Below, piece after piece: positions 53,845 to 61,517 of a stretch of 64,000 bases of DNA. The stretch lies in assembly GCA_017643585.1 (NCBI GenBank), contig JAEPND010000010.1, positions 36,535 through 100,534 of the forward strand, read 5' to 3'. Numbering within the stretch: position 1 is the stretch's first letter; every line of letters starts with the position of its first letter. The notes beneath the pieces were generated by a model that made no database searches, was not told where the DNA came from, and was given only the letters and a program-made list of their open reading frames with translations. Origin of the DNA: Maricaulis sp. (lineage in GTDB: Bacteria > Pseudomonadota > Alphaproteobacteria > Caulobacterales > Maricaulaceae). Both the position numbers and the translations under genes were made by a program.

Positions 53845-54195
53845 TTATCCGCCTTGGAGAATCCGGCGAGGCAAGACCAGAGCAACCATGCCGGCAGCGA
53901 GTGCCATTGCGGCAGCGGCCATGGTTTCCGGTGACATCAGGAAGGAAGCATTGGCCATAATGCCCTCGGCCGGGATCTGGATATTGCCCAGAACACTTTC
54001 GAGCTGCGTTCCCGCAATCGCCGATCCGGTGGACCCGGCTCCGCCCAGGATCAGCACCCGCTTGCGATCCGGGTTGTTGAGCTTGGCGATCACGCTCTGC
54101 GCGAAGGCATCAGCACTTTTATCTTCTTCAAGCGGTTTCGCAGCTGCGGCGAAAGCGGCTTTCAGGCGTGCGTCAAATGCATCTTCCATGGTCAT
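53845..54195 (-). CDS. Small two-TM protein of ECF cassette A, putative anti-sigma
   Basis: A 116-residue protein that overlaps the sigma gene by 4 nt (ATGA) and so is translationally coupled. A cytoplasmic helical head (MTMEDAFDARLKAAFAAAA) is followed by two hydrophobic segments and ends in ALVLPRRIL. The cassette B counterpart ends LPRRVF and has the same layout. No zinc-binding HxxxCxxC motif of classical anti-sigma factors is seen. Anti-sigma function is inferred from coupling and topology. Confidence 0.65.
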   Translation of the reverse strand: MTMEDAFDARLKAAFAAAAKPLEEDKSADAFAQSVIAKLNNPDRKRVLILGGAGSTGSAIAGTQLESVLGNIQIPAEGIMANASFLMSPETMAAAAMALAAGMVALVLPRRILQGG

Positions 54196-54734
54196 CTCAC
54201 AGTTACCTCCGCTTCGGTGAAAAAAGCCTGGAGCTTGGCTCGACCCCTGTTCACGTGTGACTTTACAGTCCCCAGCGGCATTCCTGTCGCCTCTGCTGCC
54301 TCCGAATGTGACATTCCACAAGAATAGCACATAACGACGGCAACACGTTCTTCATCTTCGAGTGTAGCGAGCGCGCGATCAAGGTCTACGACATTTCCCA
54401 TGTCACGTGGCGCTTCACTCTCCTCTGCACCCTGCTGGTATTGCTCCAGCAAACGGTCGGCGGATTTGCGTTTCCTGGCTGACTTCAAGAACTCTGTATA
54501 GGCAATCGAACAGAGCCAGGATTTGAATGAGCCGGTGCCCTTGAAACTGCCGATCTTCTCGAAGGCCCGGATAAAGGTATCCTGGGCAAGATCATCGGCA
54601 AGGGCGTGGTTCCGGCACATCCGCTGCAGCATGGCCCGGACCAGGGTCTGGTGGCGCCGGACGAGCTCGCCAAAGGCTGCGCTGTTGCGCGTGGCAACAA
54701 CCAGTGCCGTGAGTTCTTCGTCCGATGCCGCCAT
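54192..54734 (-). CDS. ECF-type RNA polymerase sigma factor, cassette A
   Basis: A 180-residue sigma-70-family protein with only regions 2 and 4. Region 2 has HALADDLAQDTFIRAFEKI and GSFKSWLCSIAY; region 4 has SHSEAAEATGMPLGTVKSHV. It is likely released to drive its own regulon. It lies 29 nt downstream of a three-TM protein gene and overlaps a small two-TM protein gene. 26 nt at its region 4.2 are identical to the cassette B sigma gene. Confidence 0.92.
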   Translation of the reverse strand: MAASDEELTALVVATRNSAAFGELVRRHQTLVRAMLQRMCRNHALADDLAQDTFIRAFEKIGSFKGTGSFKSWLCSIAYTEFLKSARKRKSADRLLEQYQQGAEESEAPRDMGNVVDLDRALATLEDEERVAVVMCYSCGMSHSEAAEATGMPLGTVKSHVNRGRAKLQAFFTEAEVTVR

Positions 54735-54763
54735 GACTTAAGTCCCGGTTCCCAGCCCGCGGC

Positions 54764-55156
54764 TTACGCCGCGTTTTCCTGCTCTTTTTTACGGCCCATC
54801 AGACCGAAACCGATCAGAACAAGGCCAATAAAGCCCGGGAATGAAGCGACAGCTGTCATAATCGCCAGGAACCCGTCACCCCAGAAAGATTCGGTCGCCC
54901 ATCCCAAAAACAGGATCGCCGCGGCCACGGCCATCAGGATCATGCCAGACTTGAGGTCACCATTGGCGTTCGACTTGGCCGGCATACCGAGAGCCTTGAT
55001 TGTTTCAGGAGTCATTTGCTGACCGCCACGAATGGCTTCCTCGATGGTGGACAGCGTCGCCTTGCGACGTTGGGTGTTTGCGTTGAACGCGATCCAGACA
55101 ATGGCAACAACCATCAGGAACGGTGACATCGCGACCAGCATAACGGCGATTTCCAT
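54764..55156 (-). CDS. Three-TM membrane protein of ECF cassette A (DUF6249-like)
   Basis: A 130-residue protein with one N-terminal TM helix (about 5-25), a charged cytoplasmic linker (TIEEAIRGGQQMTPETIKAL) and two C-terminal TM helices, ending in a Lys-rich tail (GRKKEQENAA). This fits the DUF6249 type, often beside ECF sigma genes. It could be a sensor; that is inference. Cassette B's first gene has the same plan. Confidence 0.7.
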   Translation of the reverse strand: MEIAVMLVAMSPFLMVVAIVWIAFNANTQRRKATLSTIEEAIRGGQQMTPETIKALGMPAKSNANGDLKSGMILMAVAAAILFLGWATESFWGDGFLAIMTAVASFPGFIGLVLIGFGLMGRKKEQENAA

Positions 55157-55240
55157 TTTTATTCTCCTTGTACTCGACCGGCGCGCTGCACGCCGTTTCT
55201 GACCATTAGATGCGGGTCAGGGCGATTTTGGATGCACAGA

Positions 55241-55798
55241 TCATCCAATAATCGCCACGCCGAACAAATACATGTGTATATTCATTAAGATAAGCGCTGC
55301 AAGAACGCCCAGGACAATGGCCGTCAAATCACCACCCCAGCCCTTGACGATGGGTGGCGGGGTCTCACGCATCCAGGACGCAATGAAGGTGATTGCCGAC
55401 CAGACGAAGAAAGATCCAAACAGCAACACCGCGCTCAGCTCGCCATTCGCCATCAGGTGTCCAAACGCCCACAACATGGTGCCGGCCAGCATGGGATGGC
55501 GCACCCAGCGGCGAATATGTCCCGGTGCATAGGCTGAAACGATCAGGATCAGCGCCAGCGGAACCAGTGTGAAGGCGAGATGGCGTGTCCAGACCGGCGG
55601 ATACCAGATCACGACCGGCGGATGCGCGATGATCTTGCCATAGATGATCAGGGCAAAGCCCAGCAGGGAGATCACGGTATAGCCCAGCTTGTAGGGCGTT
55701 GCCCCGAGCTGGTCCTGCAGCTTGTCCCGGGCTCCGGGAATGAGGCGCAAGGAATGGACGCCGAGGAACAAAACTAATCCGGCAACCAGTACAAGCAT
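55241..55798 (-). CDS. NnrU family membrane protein
   Basis: A 185-residue protein with about five to six TM segments. The NnrU features are FLGVHSLRLIPGARD at the start and RRWVRHPMLAGTMLWAFGHLMANG in the middle. NnrU was first seen in nitrite/nitric-oxide gene clusters, and some relatives are linked to membrane isomerase or methyltransferase folds; no denitrification gene is in this window. It lies between the two ECF cassettes on the same strand. Confidence 0.75.
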   Translation of the reverse strand: MLVLVAGLVLFLGVHSLRLIPGARDKLQDQLGATPYKLGYTVISLLGFALIIYGKIIAHPPVVIWYPPVWTRHLAFTLVPLALILIVSAYAPGHIRRWVRHPMLAGTMLWAFGHLMANGELSAVLLFGSFFVWSAITFIASWMRETPPPIVKGWGGDLTAIVLGVLAALILMNIHMYLFGVAIIG

Positions 55799-55869
55799 AA
55801 ACGCCTCCCCTATCTGACCGCCGACTATAGGTGATTCAGATCAGAACCCAGAATTTGGATGTGGATATC

Positions 55870-56184
55870 CTAGAAGAAAACCCGCCGGGGCAGGCTGATC
55901 GCGCGGGTCACCAGGGCGTGCCCGAGGAAAGCAACCCCTCCGGCGATCACCAGGGTCAGCCCGGCCATGTCCATACTGCTCAGCATCTGAGCCGCAGCAG
56001 CTGCCAGGGCCTCTCCCGAGGCAAACAGGACGATGAGCAAAACCACCGACACACACGCCAGGATCGCCAACTCGATCAGAAAGCGTCGTTGAGCGACCGC
56101 ACGCATGACACCCGCCCGGAAGGCCGGATCAACAGCGGGCGCCTCGTCCAGTGCAAACAGGTTTTCGAGCGTATCATTGCTCAT
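55870..56184 (-). CDS. Small two-TM protein of ECF cassette B, putative anti-sigma
   Basis: A 104-residue protein overlapping the sigma gene by 11 nt. A short helical head (LENLFALDEAPAVDPAFRAG) is followed by two TM segments (about 36-57 and 71-90), and it ends LPRRVFF, like cassette A's ALVLPRRIL. No Zn-binding anti-sigma motif. It probably sequesters its sigma factor at the membrane; this is inferred. Confidence 0.65.
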   Translation of the reverse strand: MSNDTLENLFALDEAPAVDPAFRAGVMRAVAQRRFLIELAILACVSVVLLIVLFASGEALAAAAAQMLSSMDMAGLTLVIAGGVAFLGHALVTRAISLPRRVFF

Positions 56185-56710
56185 GCGCATCTCCGAGTAT
56201 CTCTTCAAGCCGCGCCCGGCCGCGACTGACGTGTGACTTTACAGTCCCCAGCGGAATTTCCAAAGCCCTCGACGCCTCGTCATGCGTCCACCCCCCGGCC
56301 AGGCAGAGCGCGACAGCCGCGCGCTGGTCCTCGGACAAGGTGCTCAGGGCCCGGTTAAGCGCCAGCCGGAGATCATTGGTCGGCACCTGCTCTTGCGGCT
56401 GCAATTCGTGCCAAGCCTCGTCCCGGGCCCGCCGCCGCGCTGCACTGCGCTTGAATGTCTTGCTCATGCGCCAGGCCATGCCAAACAGCCAGGAGCGGAA
56501 CATGTCCGGCGATCGCAAGAGCCGGAGCTTGGTCCAGGCGGCCAGGAATACCTCCTGCGCCAGCTCGTCGGCGTCAGCATCGTTTCCGCTGACCCGACGA
56601 AGGAAACTGCGAAGTGCTTGCTGGTGCCTGTCCACCAGACGTGAAAAGGCTGCGTCAGACCCCGCCAGGGATGCAGACACTAGGTCTGCATCCGTCCGAG
56701 CTGCTTGCAT
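56174..56710 (-). CDS. ECF-type RNA polymerase sigma factor, cassette B
   Basis: A 178-residue sigma with regions 2 (NDADADELAQEVFLAAWTKL, FRSWLFGMAWRMSKTFKR) and 4 (THDEASRALEIPLGTVKSHV). The ATG at 56710 has GGAAAG about 9 nt upstream and lies 4 nt after the preceding stop; a longer frame overlaps that gene. Its region 4 DNA shares 26 identical nt with cassette A, so the two may be recent paralogues or have undergone gene conversion. Confidence 0.9.
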   Translation of the reverse strand: MQAARTDADLVSASLAGSDAAFSRLVDRHQQALRSFLRRVSGNDADADELAQEVFLAAWTKLRLLRSPDMFRSWLFGMAWRMSKTFKRSAARRRARDEAWHELQPQEQVPTNDLRLALNRALSTLSEDQRAAVALCLAGGWTHDEASRALEIPLGTVKSHVSRGRARLEEILGDAHEQ

Positions 56711-56714
56711 CAGC

Positions 56715-57110
56715 TTATTTCTTTCCGCCCTTGAACAGGCTGCCAAAGAGGAAAGCCACGGCCAGAACGCCCATGATCATGGCGACAAAATAGGCCTCCT
56801 CGCCCATGCCGATCAGGCCGCTATAACCTTCATAGGCAAACACGGCTGACAGACCGACAAAGAGTACGACGAGGAAGGCATTCCCACCGCCACCGCTGTC
56901 ACTATCACTGTCATGCCAGTCATTGCGGTCATGGGTTTCGATCTTTTCCAGGCTTTCAACCAGGGAGGCCGGCGGTTCCTTGCCCGCGGCCGCATAGGTC
57001 TTCAGCAGGTCGATCTTGGCCTTGGTCTGCTGATAGCTCATGAAGCTGTTCCAGCCTGCGATCAGGAAAAAGCCCAGGGGGAAGAGCAACCACCAATAAT
57101 GTTGGAACAA
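56715..57110 (-). CDS. Three-TM membrane protein of ECF cassette B
   Basis: About 131 residues from a TTG at 57110 (FQHYWWLLFPLGFFLIAGW). TM1, a charged linker (KAKIDLLKTYAAAGKEPPAS), an Asp/Ser/Gly-rich patch, then two TM helices and a Lys-rich end (FKGGKK). The layout matches the cassette A membrane protein. The start is uncertain: upstream ATGs (57167 and later) would add residues read through an older gene's remnant. Confidence 0.65.
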   Translation of the reverse strand: MFQHYWWLLFPLGFFLIAGWNSFMSYQQTKAKIDLLKTYAAAGKEPPASLVESLEKIETHDRNDWHDSDSDSGGGGNAFLVVLFVGLSAVFAYEGYSGLIGMGEEAYFVAMIMGVLAVAFLFGSLFKGGKK

Positions 57111-57114
57111 ATAC

Positions 57115-57249
57115 GCCACGCGGATTGGCCGTCGCGCGAACATTGAGCACATCGAAACTGTCGACATTGACGACGCGGTAGAGACTGGGCTGCGCCTCGG
57201 CGGCGAACGTCGCGAGAAGAAGAAGGAAAACGCTGCTCAACCACTTCAT
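57115..57249 (-). pseudogene. Truncated exported SH3-like gene remnant
   Basis: From the ATG at 57249 a good signal peptide (MKWLSSVFLLLLATFAAEAQ) leads to PSLYRVVNVDSFDVLNVRAT, which looks like the first strands of a bacterial SH3 domain (the LNVR motif). After about 45 codons the frame runs into the out-of-frame start of the next gene. I infer a deletion fused the gene's 5' end to the cassette B membrane gene. Confidence 0.5.
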
Positions 57250-57288
57250 GGGATGATCTTGTTGCGAGGCGAAAACTGCGGCGGCACG

Positions 57289-58371
57289 CTAGCGTTTGCG
57301 CCAGCGATGGTCGAGCGGTTCTTTTTTGCTGGGCCGCGCGGGAAGCTCGACCTGCGACGTCGTCGTGTCCGCCAACACAGTGTAGGCATCGCCGACCAGG
57401 ATGCGGATGACTTTCTGGGCCGGCTCTTCCAGCTTGGCGAAATGCTGCTTGAGAACTTCCAAACAGCGGGCCCGGTAAGGATTGACCGGCACTTCCCAGC
57501 GGATCCCGTCCTCCTCCCATCTCACCACCTCCTGACCCGTCGCCATCGCGATCGTATTGGCCTGGAGATAAGGCAGGTACTGGCGCCCGATCAGCGCAAA
57601 GATGGGTCCGAGATCGGGCGGAATGCGCTGTGCGGCAACACTGTCCCGCAGGCTTTCCGGTGTCGTGGCCCAGAGCCGCGCCGTCCAGTTGAGCGTGTGT
57701 GGTGCCTTTTCACGCAACAGGGCGTGGGGTGTCGGATCATAGGAGAAATGACGATGCATCGCCCCGAACAGGCCGAAATCGGCCTCGCAGGGCCGGTCTC
57801 CGAACAGGAAGAGGCGATCCTCGAAGACCACTTCCAGCATATCGAGGACCTCTAGCAGGAGGTTCTCGATCAGCGGCGCCGTCTCGGCGGTGACACCATC
57901 CTGTTTAAGGAACTGCTTTTGCTGGCGATGGCGAATGAAACGCTGCCGGACAAAACGCGGTGCCTTGACGTCCCGCAGCAATCCATCGGCCAGCTGTCCG
58001 CTCATCAACTCCGCATCCGGCTTGAAGGCCCAGCGATAATAGAGCGCCGGGCGCCATAACCACTCATCGAAGAAGTCTTCCAGTAACAGGCTGGCGAAAG
58101 CGACGGCGGGCGGGCCCGGCTTGAAGCGCGGATTGGGCCAATAGGCCTCGAAATGGGCGATGATATCGGATGTGTCTGTCATCCAGCTGCCGTCTTCGCA
58201 TTCCAGCTGGGGCATTTGCGAGATTCCGGTCTCTGCGGCGCAGGACCGGAACGTCGCCATATCCATCTCGACATAGTCATAGGGCACGCCCTTGGCGCGC
58301 AGATAGCCTTCAAGCTTTCCCGTGAAATAGGAAAGCTTGAGGCCGTAAAGTCTATAGAGCGGGCGAGACAT
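57289..58371 (-). CDS. Glutathione S-transferase-like protein
   Basis: A 360-residue protein with an N-terminal thioredoxin-like domain (LYRLYGLKLSYFTGKLEGYL, MPQLECEDGSWMTDTSDIIAHFE) and a longer helical C-domain (FLFGDRPCEADFGLFGAMHRH). It is longer than most GSTs (about 200-230), so it is a two-domain member of the broader fold superfamily. Substrate unknown; cytoplasmic. Confidence 0.75.
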   Translation of the reverse strand: MSRPLYRLYGLKLSYFTGKLEGYLRAKGVPYDYVEMDMATFRSCAAETGISQMPQLECEDGSWMTDTSDIIAHFEAYWPNPRFKPGPPAVAFASLLLEDFFDEWLWRPALYYRWAFKPDAELMSGQLADGLLRDVKAPRFVRQRFIRHRQQKQFLKQDGVTAETAPLIENLLLEVLDMLEVVFEDRLFLFGDRPCEADFGLFGAMHRHFSYDPTPHALLREKAPHTLNWTARLWATTPESLRDSVAAQRIPPDLGPIFALIGRQYLPYLQANTIAMATGQEVVRWEEDGIRWEVPVNPYRARCLEVLKQHFAKLEEPAQKVIRILVGDAYTVLADTTTSQVELPARPSKKEPLDHRWRKR

Positions 58372-59996: not shown

Positions 59997-61517
59997 ATGC
60001 TTCGTCTTCTCCTCCTCCCGCTGGCCCTGCTTGCCAGCCCCCTCGCCGGCCCGGCCCAGGCGCAAAGCTTCCAGTGGATCGACGACCGCCCCGTCACGGT
60101 CTGCCCCGTGGCTGCGGGCGAAACCCAGCCACCAGACTTCACGGGTGCGGAGTGCCAGGAAATGCCGCTCGGCCAGGTCGATCCCCAGGGCGAGCATTTC
60201 TGGATGCGCACCAGCATTACGCCCAGCGAGGCCTTGAGGCAGGGCCTGTCACCGCTGGGCTTTTATATCTCGGGCAAGGCCTCCAGCCGGGTCTGGATCA
60301 ATGGCCATGAACTGGAGAGCAATGGCACCCCCGGGGTCGATCGTGACCGCGAGGTCGCCGGGCTGATGGATGCCGTGCTCTATGTCCCGCGCGAGATCCT
60401 GGTGACGGGTGAGAACACGGTCGTACTGGAGATGTCCGGCCATCACAGCCTGATCCACCTGCACGCGCCCATGCATACGCTTGGCATGGCGCAATACACC
60501 AATCCCACGCTGCTGATCCTCGGCGCCTACTGGCCGTCCCTGATAACATTCGGGGTGTTCATCCTGGCGCTGGTGTTTTTCGGGGTCGTCGCCCTGCGCG
60601 AGGAAAAATGGGAAGGCCCCTTCCTGCTTGCCCTGCTCGCCGCCGTCGCCGGTTGCCAATTATTCGCGGAAAGCGCACGCGGCCTGATTTATTACGCCTA
60701 TTCCCTGCATGACTACCGCTTGATCGGTATCGCCACCGGCGCCGTACTGGCCGGCCTGCTGCTCGTGGCCTGGCTGTTACAGCGCTTTTCCGGTTTGAGC
60801 GCGGCACAGCGTTATCTGCGGCTGGGCGGCGTGGTCCTGGCCTGCCTTGTGATCGTCCAGCTCTCCCCGGGCTTTGATGCCAAGGCCGGATACGGCTTCA
60901 TGACCGCCGCCCTGTTCGCGACCGCCTGGTGCGGGCTGTGGAGCTGGCAGAAAAAGCCCGGCGCCCTGACCTATCTGGCCATTTCGGGCGGTTTCTCGCT
61001 TCTGCTCCTCCTGTTCCAGGGCGAGTTCCTCGATTTCTATTTCTTCTATGCCTTTGCCGGGTTGCTGCTCTTCCTGATCCAGCAACAGGCTGCGGAACTG
61101 GTCCGCACCCGCCGGGAAAAGCGCGCCGAGGCGGTCCGCGCCGACAAGCTGGAACTCGCGCTCGCCCAGGCTCGTCAGCGCACGGCCCCGGAACAGATCC
61201 AGCTGGTCTCCAGCGGGCGGGTGGATTATCTCGCCACCGACACCATCACCCAGTTCAAGGGTGCCGGCGATTATGTCGAAGTCCATCTCGAAGGCGGCAA
61301 GACGGCGCTTTACAATGGGGGGCTTTCCGCGCTTGAGAGCGATCTTCCACCCACCTTCCTGCGTGTTCACCGCTCCCACATCGTCAACACGGCCTTTGTC
61401 TCTGCCCTGGAACGCGATGCCAGCGGGATCGGCCGCCTGCTCCTGTCCAACGGCCAGGAAGTCCCCGTCTCCCGCCGCATCATGCCCAAGGTCAGGAGCG
61501 CACTGGCGGAAGGATAG
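59997..61517 (+). CDS. Membrane receptor with LytTR DNA-binding domain
   Basis: A 506-residue one-component regulator. Signal peptide (1-22), a periplasmic beta-rich domain (about 23-160, with WINGHELESNGTP) of the type paired with 7TM signalling proteins, six to seven TM helices (about 165-370), a coiled linker, then a C-terminal LytTR domain (about 400-500: VDYLATDTITQFKGAGDYVEV, LRVHRSHIVN, LLSNGQEVPVSRR). It probably binds DNA while membrane-anchored. The ligand and targets are unknown; the divergent exported hydrolase may be a target. Confidence 0.82.
   Translation: MLRLLLLPLALLASPLAGPAQAQSFQWIDDRPVTVCPVAAGETQPPDFTGAECQEMPLGQVDPQGEHFWMRTSITPSEALRQGLSPLGFYISGKASSRVWINGHELESNGTPGVDRDREVAGLMDAVLYVPREILVTGENTVVLEMSGHHSLIHLHAPMHTLGMAQYTNPTLLILGAYWPSLITFGVFILALVFFGVVALREEKWEGPFLLALLAAVAGCQLFAESARGLIYYAYSLHDYRLIGIATGAVLAGLLLVAWLLQRFSGLSAAQRYLRLGGVVLACLVIVQLSPGFDAKAGYGFMTAALFATAWCGLWSWQKKPGALTYLAISGGFSLLLLLFQGEFLDFYFFYAFAGLLLFLIQQQAAELVRTRREKRAEAVRADKLELALAQARQRTAPEQIQLVSSGRVDYLATDTITQFKGAGDYVEVHLEGGKTALYNGGLSALESDLPPTFLRVHRSHIVNTAFVSALERDASGIGRLLLSNGQEVPVSRRIMPKVRSALAEG

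Follow-up and report, generated by a model that had tools for sequence, protein, structure and literature searches.

Two adjacent three-gene cassettes, each encoding a membrane protein, an extracytoplasmic function (ECF) sigma factor and a small protein with two transmembrane (TM) helices whose gene overlaps that of the sigma factor, are evident in a 64,000-nucleotide stretch of a Maricaulis sp. genome (contig JAEPND010000010.1, positions 36,535 to 100,534; hereafter the window). We consider it probable that they are two autoregulated envelope-stress ECF switches, each with a short membrane anti-sigma factor and a DUF6249 protein as transducer. A preliminary description of the DNA had proposed a duplicated cassette with membrane partners and candidate anti-sigma factors of a non-zinc kind; this proposal is supported by the identity between the sigma factors and by profile homology between their partners, and the common order and strand of the two sets is confirmed from the open reading frames (ORFs) and Pfam domains. 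The transcription order, all on the minus strand, is memB, sigB, smallB, NnrU, DUF6249, sigA, smallA. Among named relatives Maricaulis sp. HCUG1439-2 (locus L356) stands nearest, with sigA 99% and sigB 84% identical; homology to it places the likeliest start of memB at a GTG at 57119 and not at 57110. The features are as follows.

56715..57119, minus strand: memB, 134-residue membrane protein, divergent DUF6249 relative by profile match to the DUF6249 alignment, opening cassette B; ORF and GTG start homologous to L356
56174..56710, minus strand: sigB, ECF sigma factor of cassette B (Sigma70_r2 and r4_2), member of the B clade
55870..56184, minus strand: smallB, 104-residue two-TM protein, candidate anti-sigma factor, 11-base overlap with sigB; N-terminal domain homologous to that of smallA
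55241..55798, minus strand: NnrU-family membrane protein (PF07298, 172 bits), upstream neighbour of cassette A
55208..55235, minus strand: predicted sigma-A autoregulatory promoter, GCATCC-N16-GCATCT (motif match)
54764..55156, minus strand: DUF6249 membrane protein of cassette A (PF19762, 36 bits; AlphaFold model)
54192..54734, minus strand: sigA, ECF sigma factor of cassette A (Sigma70_r2 and r4_2), 38% identical to sigB
53845..54195, minus strand: smallA, 116-residue two-TM protein with two short N-terminal helices, candidate anti-sigma factor, 4-base overlap with sigA
54253..54278, minus strand: 26-base stretch in sigA, common to sigB, coding PLGTVKSHV of sigma region 4
56229..56254, minus strand: 26-base stretch in sigB, common to sigA, coding PLGTVKSHV of sigma region 4
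57121..57295, minus strand: 175 bases unlike L356, at the place of its B promoter, where blastn of the window against L356 breaks

Relatedness of the two cassettes

Both sigma factors have the make-up of ECF (group IV) proteins: they match PF04542 and PF08281 above cut-off, contain regions 2 and 4 only and are roughly 180 residues long. Against TIGR02937 they score 92.3 and 77.8 bits (cut-off 42.9), and all of the NCBIfam equivalog and subfamily models listed for them fall below cut-off. Alignment of the pair, proposed earlier as a check, gives the 38% identity of paralogues. The three remaining sigma matches in the window's genome have no such cassette neighbours.

For the partners, pairwise BLASTP found no similarity between smallA and smallB or between memB and the cassette A DUF6249 protein, so comparison of profiles was required. 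With profiles built from 39 smallA and 11 smallB relatives, hhalign aligns the small proteins with a probability of 92-95% and a score of 41-47, where the best of 400 column shuffles scores 24; the match is limited to about 38-41 N-terminal residues, the membrane parts being unmatched. The memB and DUF6249 profiles align over 111 columns with a probability of 92-96% and a score of 46-56, where the best of 100 block shuffles scores 20 and small-protein controls 13-21. The preliminary description had named unrelated profiles as the outcome that would end the cassette idea; both comparisons, once run, score above their shuffles. The cassette A copy (P0003) belongs to DUF6249, with 36 bits against the Pfam cut-off of 33; memB (P0007) matches no Pfam family, DUF6249 included, and by its profile is a distant DUF6249.

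Conservation of the cassette

DUF6249 occurs above cut-off in 12 of 249 Pseudomonadota genomes, and in all 12 loci (window included) an ECF sigma gene lies downstream on the same strand. Order-wide, DUF6249 is matched in 200 of 249 genomes, 171 of them above cut-off. Across 171 sources (the window, 40 loci fetched by sigma factor and 130 by DUF6249, six of which coincide with another's place), a sigma gene lies directly downstream of 155 of 167 DUF6249 hidden Markov model matches; the 12 matches without one include one at a contig end and one that is weak. A further set of named loci comprises the best 80 of at least 548 fetched by sigma factor, with several strains shared with the first set. 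The cassette is present in 80 of these 80, DUF6249 or memB lies upstream of 103 of 103 sigma genes, and the downstream gene overlaps the sigma gene in 94 of 102 cases. In 178 of 180 cassettes the small gene begins no more than 20 bases from the stop codon of the sigma gene, and in 150 it overlaps that gene; the overlap counts in both locus sets are upper figures, since the start-codon rule picked the codon nearest a 4-base overlap.

Tandem pairs are found in 27 of the 157 sources that have a sigma gene and in 23 of the 80 named loci, and also in the genus Caulobacter (L302, L307); C. vibrioides, taken as a control, carries DUF6249. By record title the named loci include metagenome bins of Verrucomicrobiota and Deltaproteobacteria. 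The suggested search for the cassette order thus recovered it across the order and outside, and the cassette is an old, widely conserved bacterial signalling unit. One locus (L048, genome G017) has two tandem DUF6249-type genes upstream of a single sigma gene.

Age of the duplication

The 26 bases reported as identical in the two sigma genes are present, and a 25-base pattern made from them matches twice in the window and in none of 100 shuffles. The stretch encodes the conserved PLGTVKSHV, and other tandem loci agree less: the corresponding 27 nucleotides agree at 18-23 positions in the tandem loci of the first set (n = 21), apart from the window (26), and at 18-25 positions in the named tandem loci (n = 19), with 24 in the near-identical L356. 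For these reasons we conclude that the identity reflects a lineage accident or a tiny conversion and is no sign of recent duplication; a recent duplication is also rejected by the sigma tree. In that tree (n = 135; bootstrap not fully settled), 32 of 33 B-labelled rows group in a single 35-row clade with support of 100/98, which also takes in three rows that the labelling rule had called A; the 33rd is a reversed-order locus. The B sigma factors form one clade. Barring sideways movement of the genes, the duplication is older than the point at which Caulobacteraceae, Maricaulaceae and one or more further families of the order diverged. In a Caulobacteraceae bin (L338) the tandem cassettes stand in reverse order, A-type first and B-type second, and the upstream sigma factor is A-type in the tree.

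Two promoter-like motifs and a predicted regulon

Unseeded expectation-maximisation was applied to the upstream regions of the 180 cassettes, of which 146 A-type and 28 B-type (174) were left after identical ones had been removed. The A regions yield tGCATCC-N16-GCnTCT in about 90% of 146, and the B regions TGCATCC-N16-GCnAC(T) in about 68% of 28; the log-likelihood gains of 1748 (127 for shuffled regions) and 327 (86 shuffled) are inflated by the relatedness of the rows. The -35 and the spacer are in common and the -10 differs. When slightly relaxed patterns were applied to the named loci, the 22 upstream tandem positions showed 16 with a B site and none with an A site, and among 81 A or single positions 46 had an A site and 1 a B site; because L338 was mislabelled (reversed order, A-type upstream sigma factor), the B site stands at 15 of 21 true B positions. 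We take these motifs as putative promoters, the A motif presumably read by sigma-A and the B motif by sigma-B. The GCATCC of Sinorhizobium RpoE8 promoters lies, by our reading, on the -10 side and is unrelated, and Caulobacter SigV/CaBP has another promoter and another neighbour.

In the window the A promoter pattern has one exact match, and four matches with at most one mismatch where 2.6 are expected. The exact A pattern has 133 matches in 19 genomes of the genus, where changing the spacer to 14 leaves 20, changing it to 19 leaves 41 and reading the pattern backwards leaves 1; in the window's own genome it has 9, against 0 and 1 in controls. The backwards-read pattern is a weak control because its dinucleotide make-up differs, and the wrong-spacer controls lower the excess; judged by the latter, perhaps two thirds or more of the A sites in the genus are real.

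Among 40 A sites picked by eye, four precede cassettes themselves (L286, L287, L292, L299). Family scans of 20 first genes gave DUF2807 in five (one also DUF4097), Peptidase_S41 in three (one below cut-off), AraC regulators in two, and single cases of a class C beta-lactamase-like protein, DUF5694, an outer-membrane efflux protein, an M1 peptidase and a bactofilin (below cut-off); five have no family. Some of the predicted targets are probably exported, judging from signal peptides recognised by reading. Four of the eight non-cassette A sites of the window's own genome were fetched: that at L264 precedes a gene for a DUF2807 protein, that at L265 one for a class C hydrolase and that at L263 one for a family-less protein, and the fourth (L262) has no clear nearby gene. 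In three genomes of the genus (L281, L283, L294) A sites precede what appears by eye to be the same efflux gene, L281 alone having been scanned; there an adaptor-like gene follows the outer-membrane efflux protein gene.

The small proteins as candidate anti-sigma factors

The N-terminus is the only part of the small proteins conserved between cassettes A and B; within it, 95% of 258 sequences retain Phe31. The AlphaFold (AF2) model of smallA has helices at 6-19, 25-39, 44-71 and 89-107, with the first TM helix beginning at 44. Class II anti-sigma factors place a short two-helix segment on their ECF target, and class I domains measure 101 +/- 33 residues, zinc not being obligatory in that class, according to PMC7406223 (both points) and PMC8103513 (the first). 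In form, smallA fits class II, with two helices in a cytoplasmic segment of fewer than 50 residues, in a model whose predicted template modelling score (pTM) is 0.31. It does not fit the class I or zinc domain (Hx3Cx2C, at least 50 residues): the parts before the first TM helix are about 45 and 35-40 residues long in the two proteins and contain no His or Cys, in agreement with the earlier remark that the usual zinc motif is absent. That the proteins end in LPRR was inexact, this motif lying close to the C-terminus and not at it (LPRRILQGG, LPRRVFF). By the positive-inside rule we read the small N-terminus and the DUF6249 linker as cytoplasmic, with almost nothing periplasmic. One would expect a class II-like anti-sigma factor to have just such a short cytoplasmic part, made of two helices, anchored in the membrane and translated together with the sigma factor; by analogy the small protein is probably one, and would bind its sigma factor through this segment.

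DUF5056 (PF16479) is matched by 7 of 38 smallA members (best 1.2e-4). The window's small proteins fall short of the family (smallB 0.093; own genome 0 of 1), and identity with DUF5056 was rejected on the own-genome result. Bacteroides ihuae, one of 4 of 14 control genomes with a match to DUF5056 at a lax E of 0.5, is also matched by DUF6249. A profile search of the PDB with the small protein returned one match, TatC, which we attribute to chance.

The DUF6249 proteins

AlphaFold models the cassette A DUF6249 protein with a predicted local distance difference test (pLDDT) score of 90 and a pTM of 0.61, with helices at 2-43, 50-55, 64-92 and 96-129; a Foldseek search with this model gave nothing at E <= 0.001, the best match being ArnC at 0.32. 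In our reading it consists of three long helices and a cytoplasmic linker, conserved as GQxLxPExIxALG...DLRxG, without a periplasmic domain. The lysine-rich end ascribed to both membrane proteins of the window is found in memB alone of the pair. PspB is matched by 16 of 45 DUF6249 members (best 2.4e-5), and the matches examined in detail span residues 4-37 at most; membership of PspB (PF06667) was rejected, P0003 scoring 12.2 bits and the best relative examined 24.8 against a cut-off of 25.6. The toastrack targets (DUF2807 and DUF4097) and the weak PspB likeness of the first helix point, short of proof, to membrane stress.

DUF6249-like proteins apart from a sigma gene were seen at L126, L163, L171, L188, L189, L190, L191 and L199, these eight with a PRE-containing tail, and also at L196 and L197. 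A multi-TM protein, which we take to be PnuC-like, follows in three of seven such neighbourhoods examined (L163, L190, L199).

A proposed mechanism and its alternatives

In the mechanism that we propose, each cassette would be an autonomous ECF sigma switch that activates its own transcription and answers to stress on the cell envelope or the membrane. The small protein, with its two TM helices, would retain its sigma factor at the membrane through its cytoplasmic two-helix segment of about 40 residues, like the class II domains of CnrY and NepR. DUF6249, being nearly always present, is the likeliest transducer, and, its conserved linker facing the cytoplasm, would sense or transmit a change in the membrane and loosen the hold on the sigma factor. 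Once freed, sigma-A would use TGCATCC-N16-GCnTCT to transcribe its operon along with a small envelope regulon, and sigma-B would serve chiefly its own operon, with the -35 and spacer unchanged and GCnAC at the -10; the old duplicates would be insulated mainly through -10 recognition.

Several results weigh against this mechanism. The low pTM of the smallA model is one; its short helices are not significantly amphipathic, and the PDB profile search found no known anti-sigma factor at E <= 10, a search of low power with so short a sequence. The A site occurs in 12 of the 28 named rows numbered L354 and above; the 16 that lack it are mostly outside Caulobacterales, so that the A motif is not universal. 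In nine Caulobacter genomes the A pattern occurs 18 times against 5 backwards, with no clear enrichment, and the search there did not bring out the Maricaulis regulon. For the B pattern the count across the genus is 26 (7 backwards), no more than the wrong-spacer A controls, and B sites are therefore credible at the cassette alone and elsewhere look like chance. At 10 loci DUF6249 stands without a sigma gene. Finally, a search of the window found no B site ahead of memB: 175 unrelated bases replace the predicted B promoter of L356, memB retaining its homologous GTG start. With this region replaced, cassette B has lost its predicted autoregulatory promoter, a natural loss after which it may be silent or otherwise driven. 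Within the replaced segment (57121-57295, minus strand) begins an ORF with the sequence MKWLSSVFLLLLATFAAEAQ..., which we take to encode a signal peptide plus an SH3-like domain.

Coevolution also counts against it, and bears on an alternative that we regard as unlikely though worth weighing: that the anti-sigma role falls to DUF6249 and its cytoplasmic linker, the small protein being a co-factor, signal receiver or anti-anti-sigma factor. In a mean-field analysis of the sigma factor against the small N-terminus (258 pairs, with pairing shuffled within clusters as control), coupling exceeds the shuffled pairings, and the top couplings form no clean interface. Coupling between the sigma factor and DUF6249 is also above shuffles and at least as strong, so coevolution gives no evidence of contact between the sigma factor and the small protein; its peak at DUF6249 columns 50-83, the linker end and the start of the second long helix, if anything favours DUF6249 as anti-sigma factor, and DUF6249 is linked to the sigma gene as tightly as the small gene is. 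However, it is the small gene that overlaps the sigma gene, anti-sigma genes as a rule lying next to the sigma gene or sharing a unit with it (PMC8103513), and the part kept between A and B is the small N-terminus.

Cross-talk, which the preliminary description had raised as possible, is in our estimate improbable: one small protein would restrain both sigma factors, or both sigma factors would fire both promoters. The cassettes are adjacent paralogues with an identical -35 and spacer, homologous small N-terminal domains and an identical sigma region 4 motif, but the promoter classes separate sharply in the named loci and the B sigma factors form a clade apart from the A sigma factors. The different -10 elements would provide insulation, the common -35 leaving weak cross-talk possible. 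That the sigma factors are controlled solely at transcription, with the membrane proteins as regulon cargo, for example membrane-stabilising, agrees with the autoregulatory promoter motif and with the 10 sigma-less DUF6249 loci, but such loci are few among those seen and the small gene is tied to the sigma gene in nearly every case, which makes this reading very improbable.

Neighbouring genes

The preliminary description had placed a DUF6249-type sensor and an NnrU protein between the copies. Pfam bears out both families, DUF6249 for the cassette A copy only and NnrU above its cut-off, and the NnrU gene, rather than lying apart between the copies, goes with cassette A: of 41 loci listed, 23 have NnrU ahead of DUF6249, and it is a family-level neighbour. 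The gene after smallA, from its sequence, is presumably panB. On the other strand (59997-61517, plus), a multi-TM protein has a C-terminus that resembles a LytTR DNA-binding domain by eye.

Relation to known systems and significance

The closest analogues of the small protein are CnrY-CnrH of Cupriavidus metallidurans and NepR-EcfG, in which a short two-helix anti-sigma segment acts on an ECF target, as proposed here; the cassette protein differs in that the PDB profile search found no sequence match, and in having two TM helices and hardly any periplasmic part. CnrY is membrane-bound and works with a CnrX-like sensor, in the place of which the cassette has DUF6249. As in RpoE-RseA and SigW-RsiW, a membrane protein gene adjoins the sigma gene and the promoter motif is autoregulatory, but the N-terminal part is only about 45 residues long, zinc motif and periplasmic sensor domain are absent, and there is a near-constant third partner. 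The likeness to Psp and Toastrack modules consists of the PspB matches, those examined staying below the curated cut-off, and of DUF2807 or DUF4097 in some predicted targets. These two families are unified as Toastrack in PMC11237479, which mentions an operonically linked sigma factor and argues that Toastrack is intracellular, whereas the predicted targets begin like exported proteins by our reading. The likeness to DUF5056 small proteins extends to part of the smallA relatives, the window's proteins staying below family level.

Literature searches for DUF6249, for DUF5056 and for NnrU with ECF sigma factors found no description of the cassette, although its sigma groups may be in the full ECF classification; the DUF6249 match was, by its listing, a bean kinase paper. 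We tentatively suggest, as a possibility that we hold doubtful, that DUF6249 and the two-TM protein with its short anti-sigma domain could form an undescribed intramembrane module without periplasmic domains, resembling a Psp sensor and wired to a dedicated ECF sigma factor and toastrack-type envelope proteins, spread across Pseudomonadota and other phyla, whose Caulobacterales tandem would be insulated by a -10 change (mainly T to A) with the -35 and spacer kept.

The cassette gives DUF6249 a testable role and presents a candidate family of very small membrane anti-sigma factors that ordinary family models miss, with a clear promoter motif offered for each branch. The paired paralogues would be a natural case for asking how recognition of separate -10 elements arises among sigma factors, one that can be tested in Caulobacter laboratory strains.

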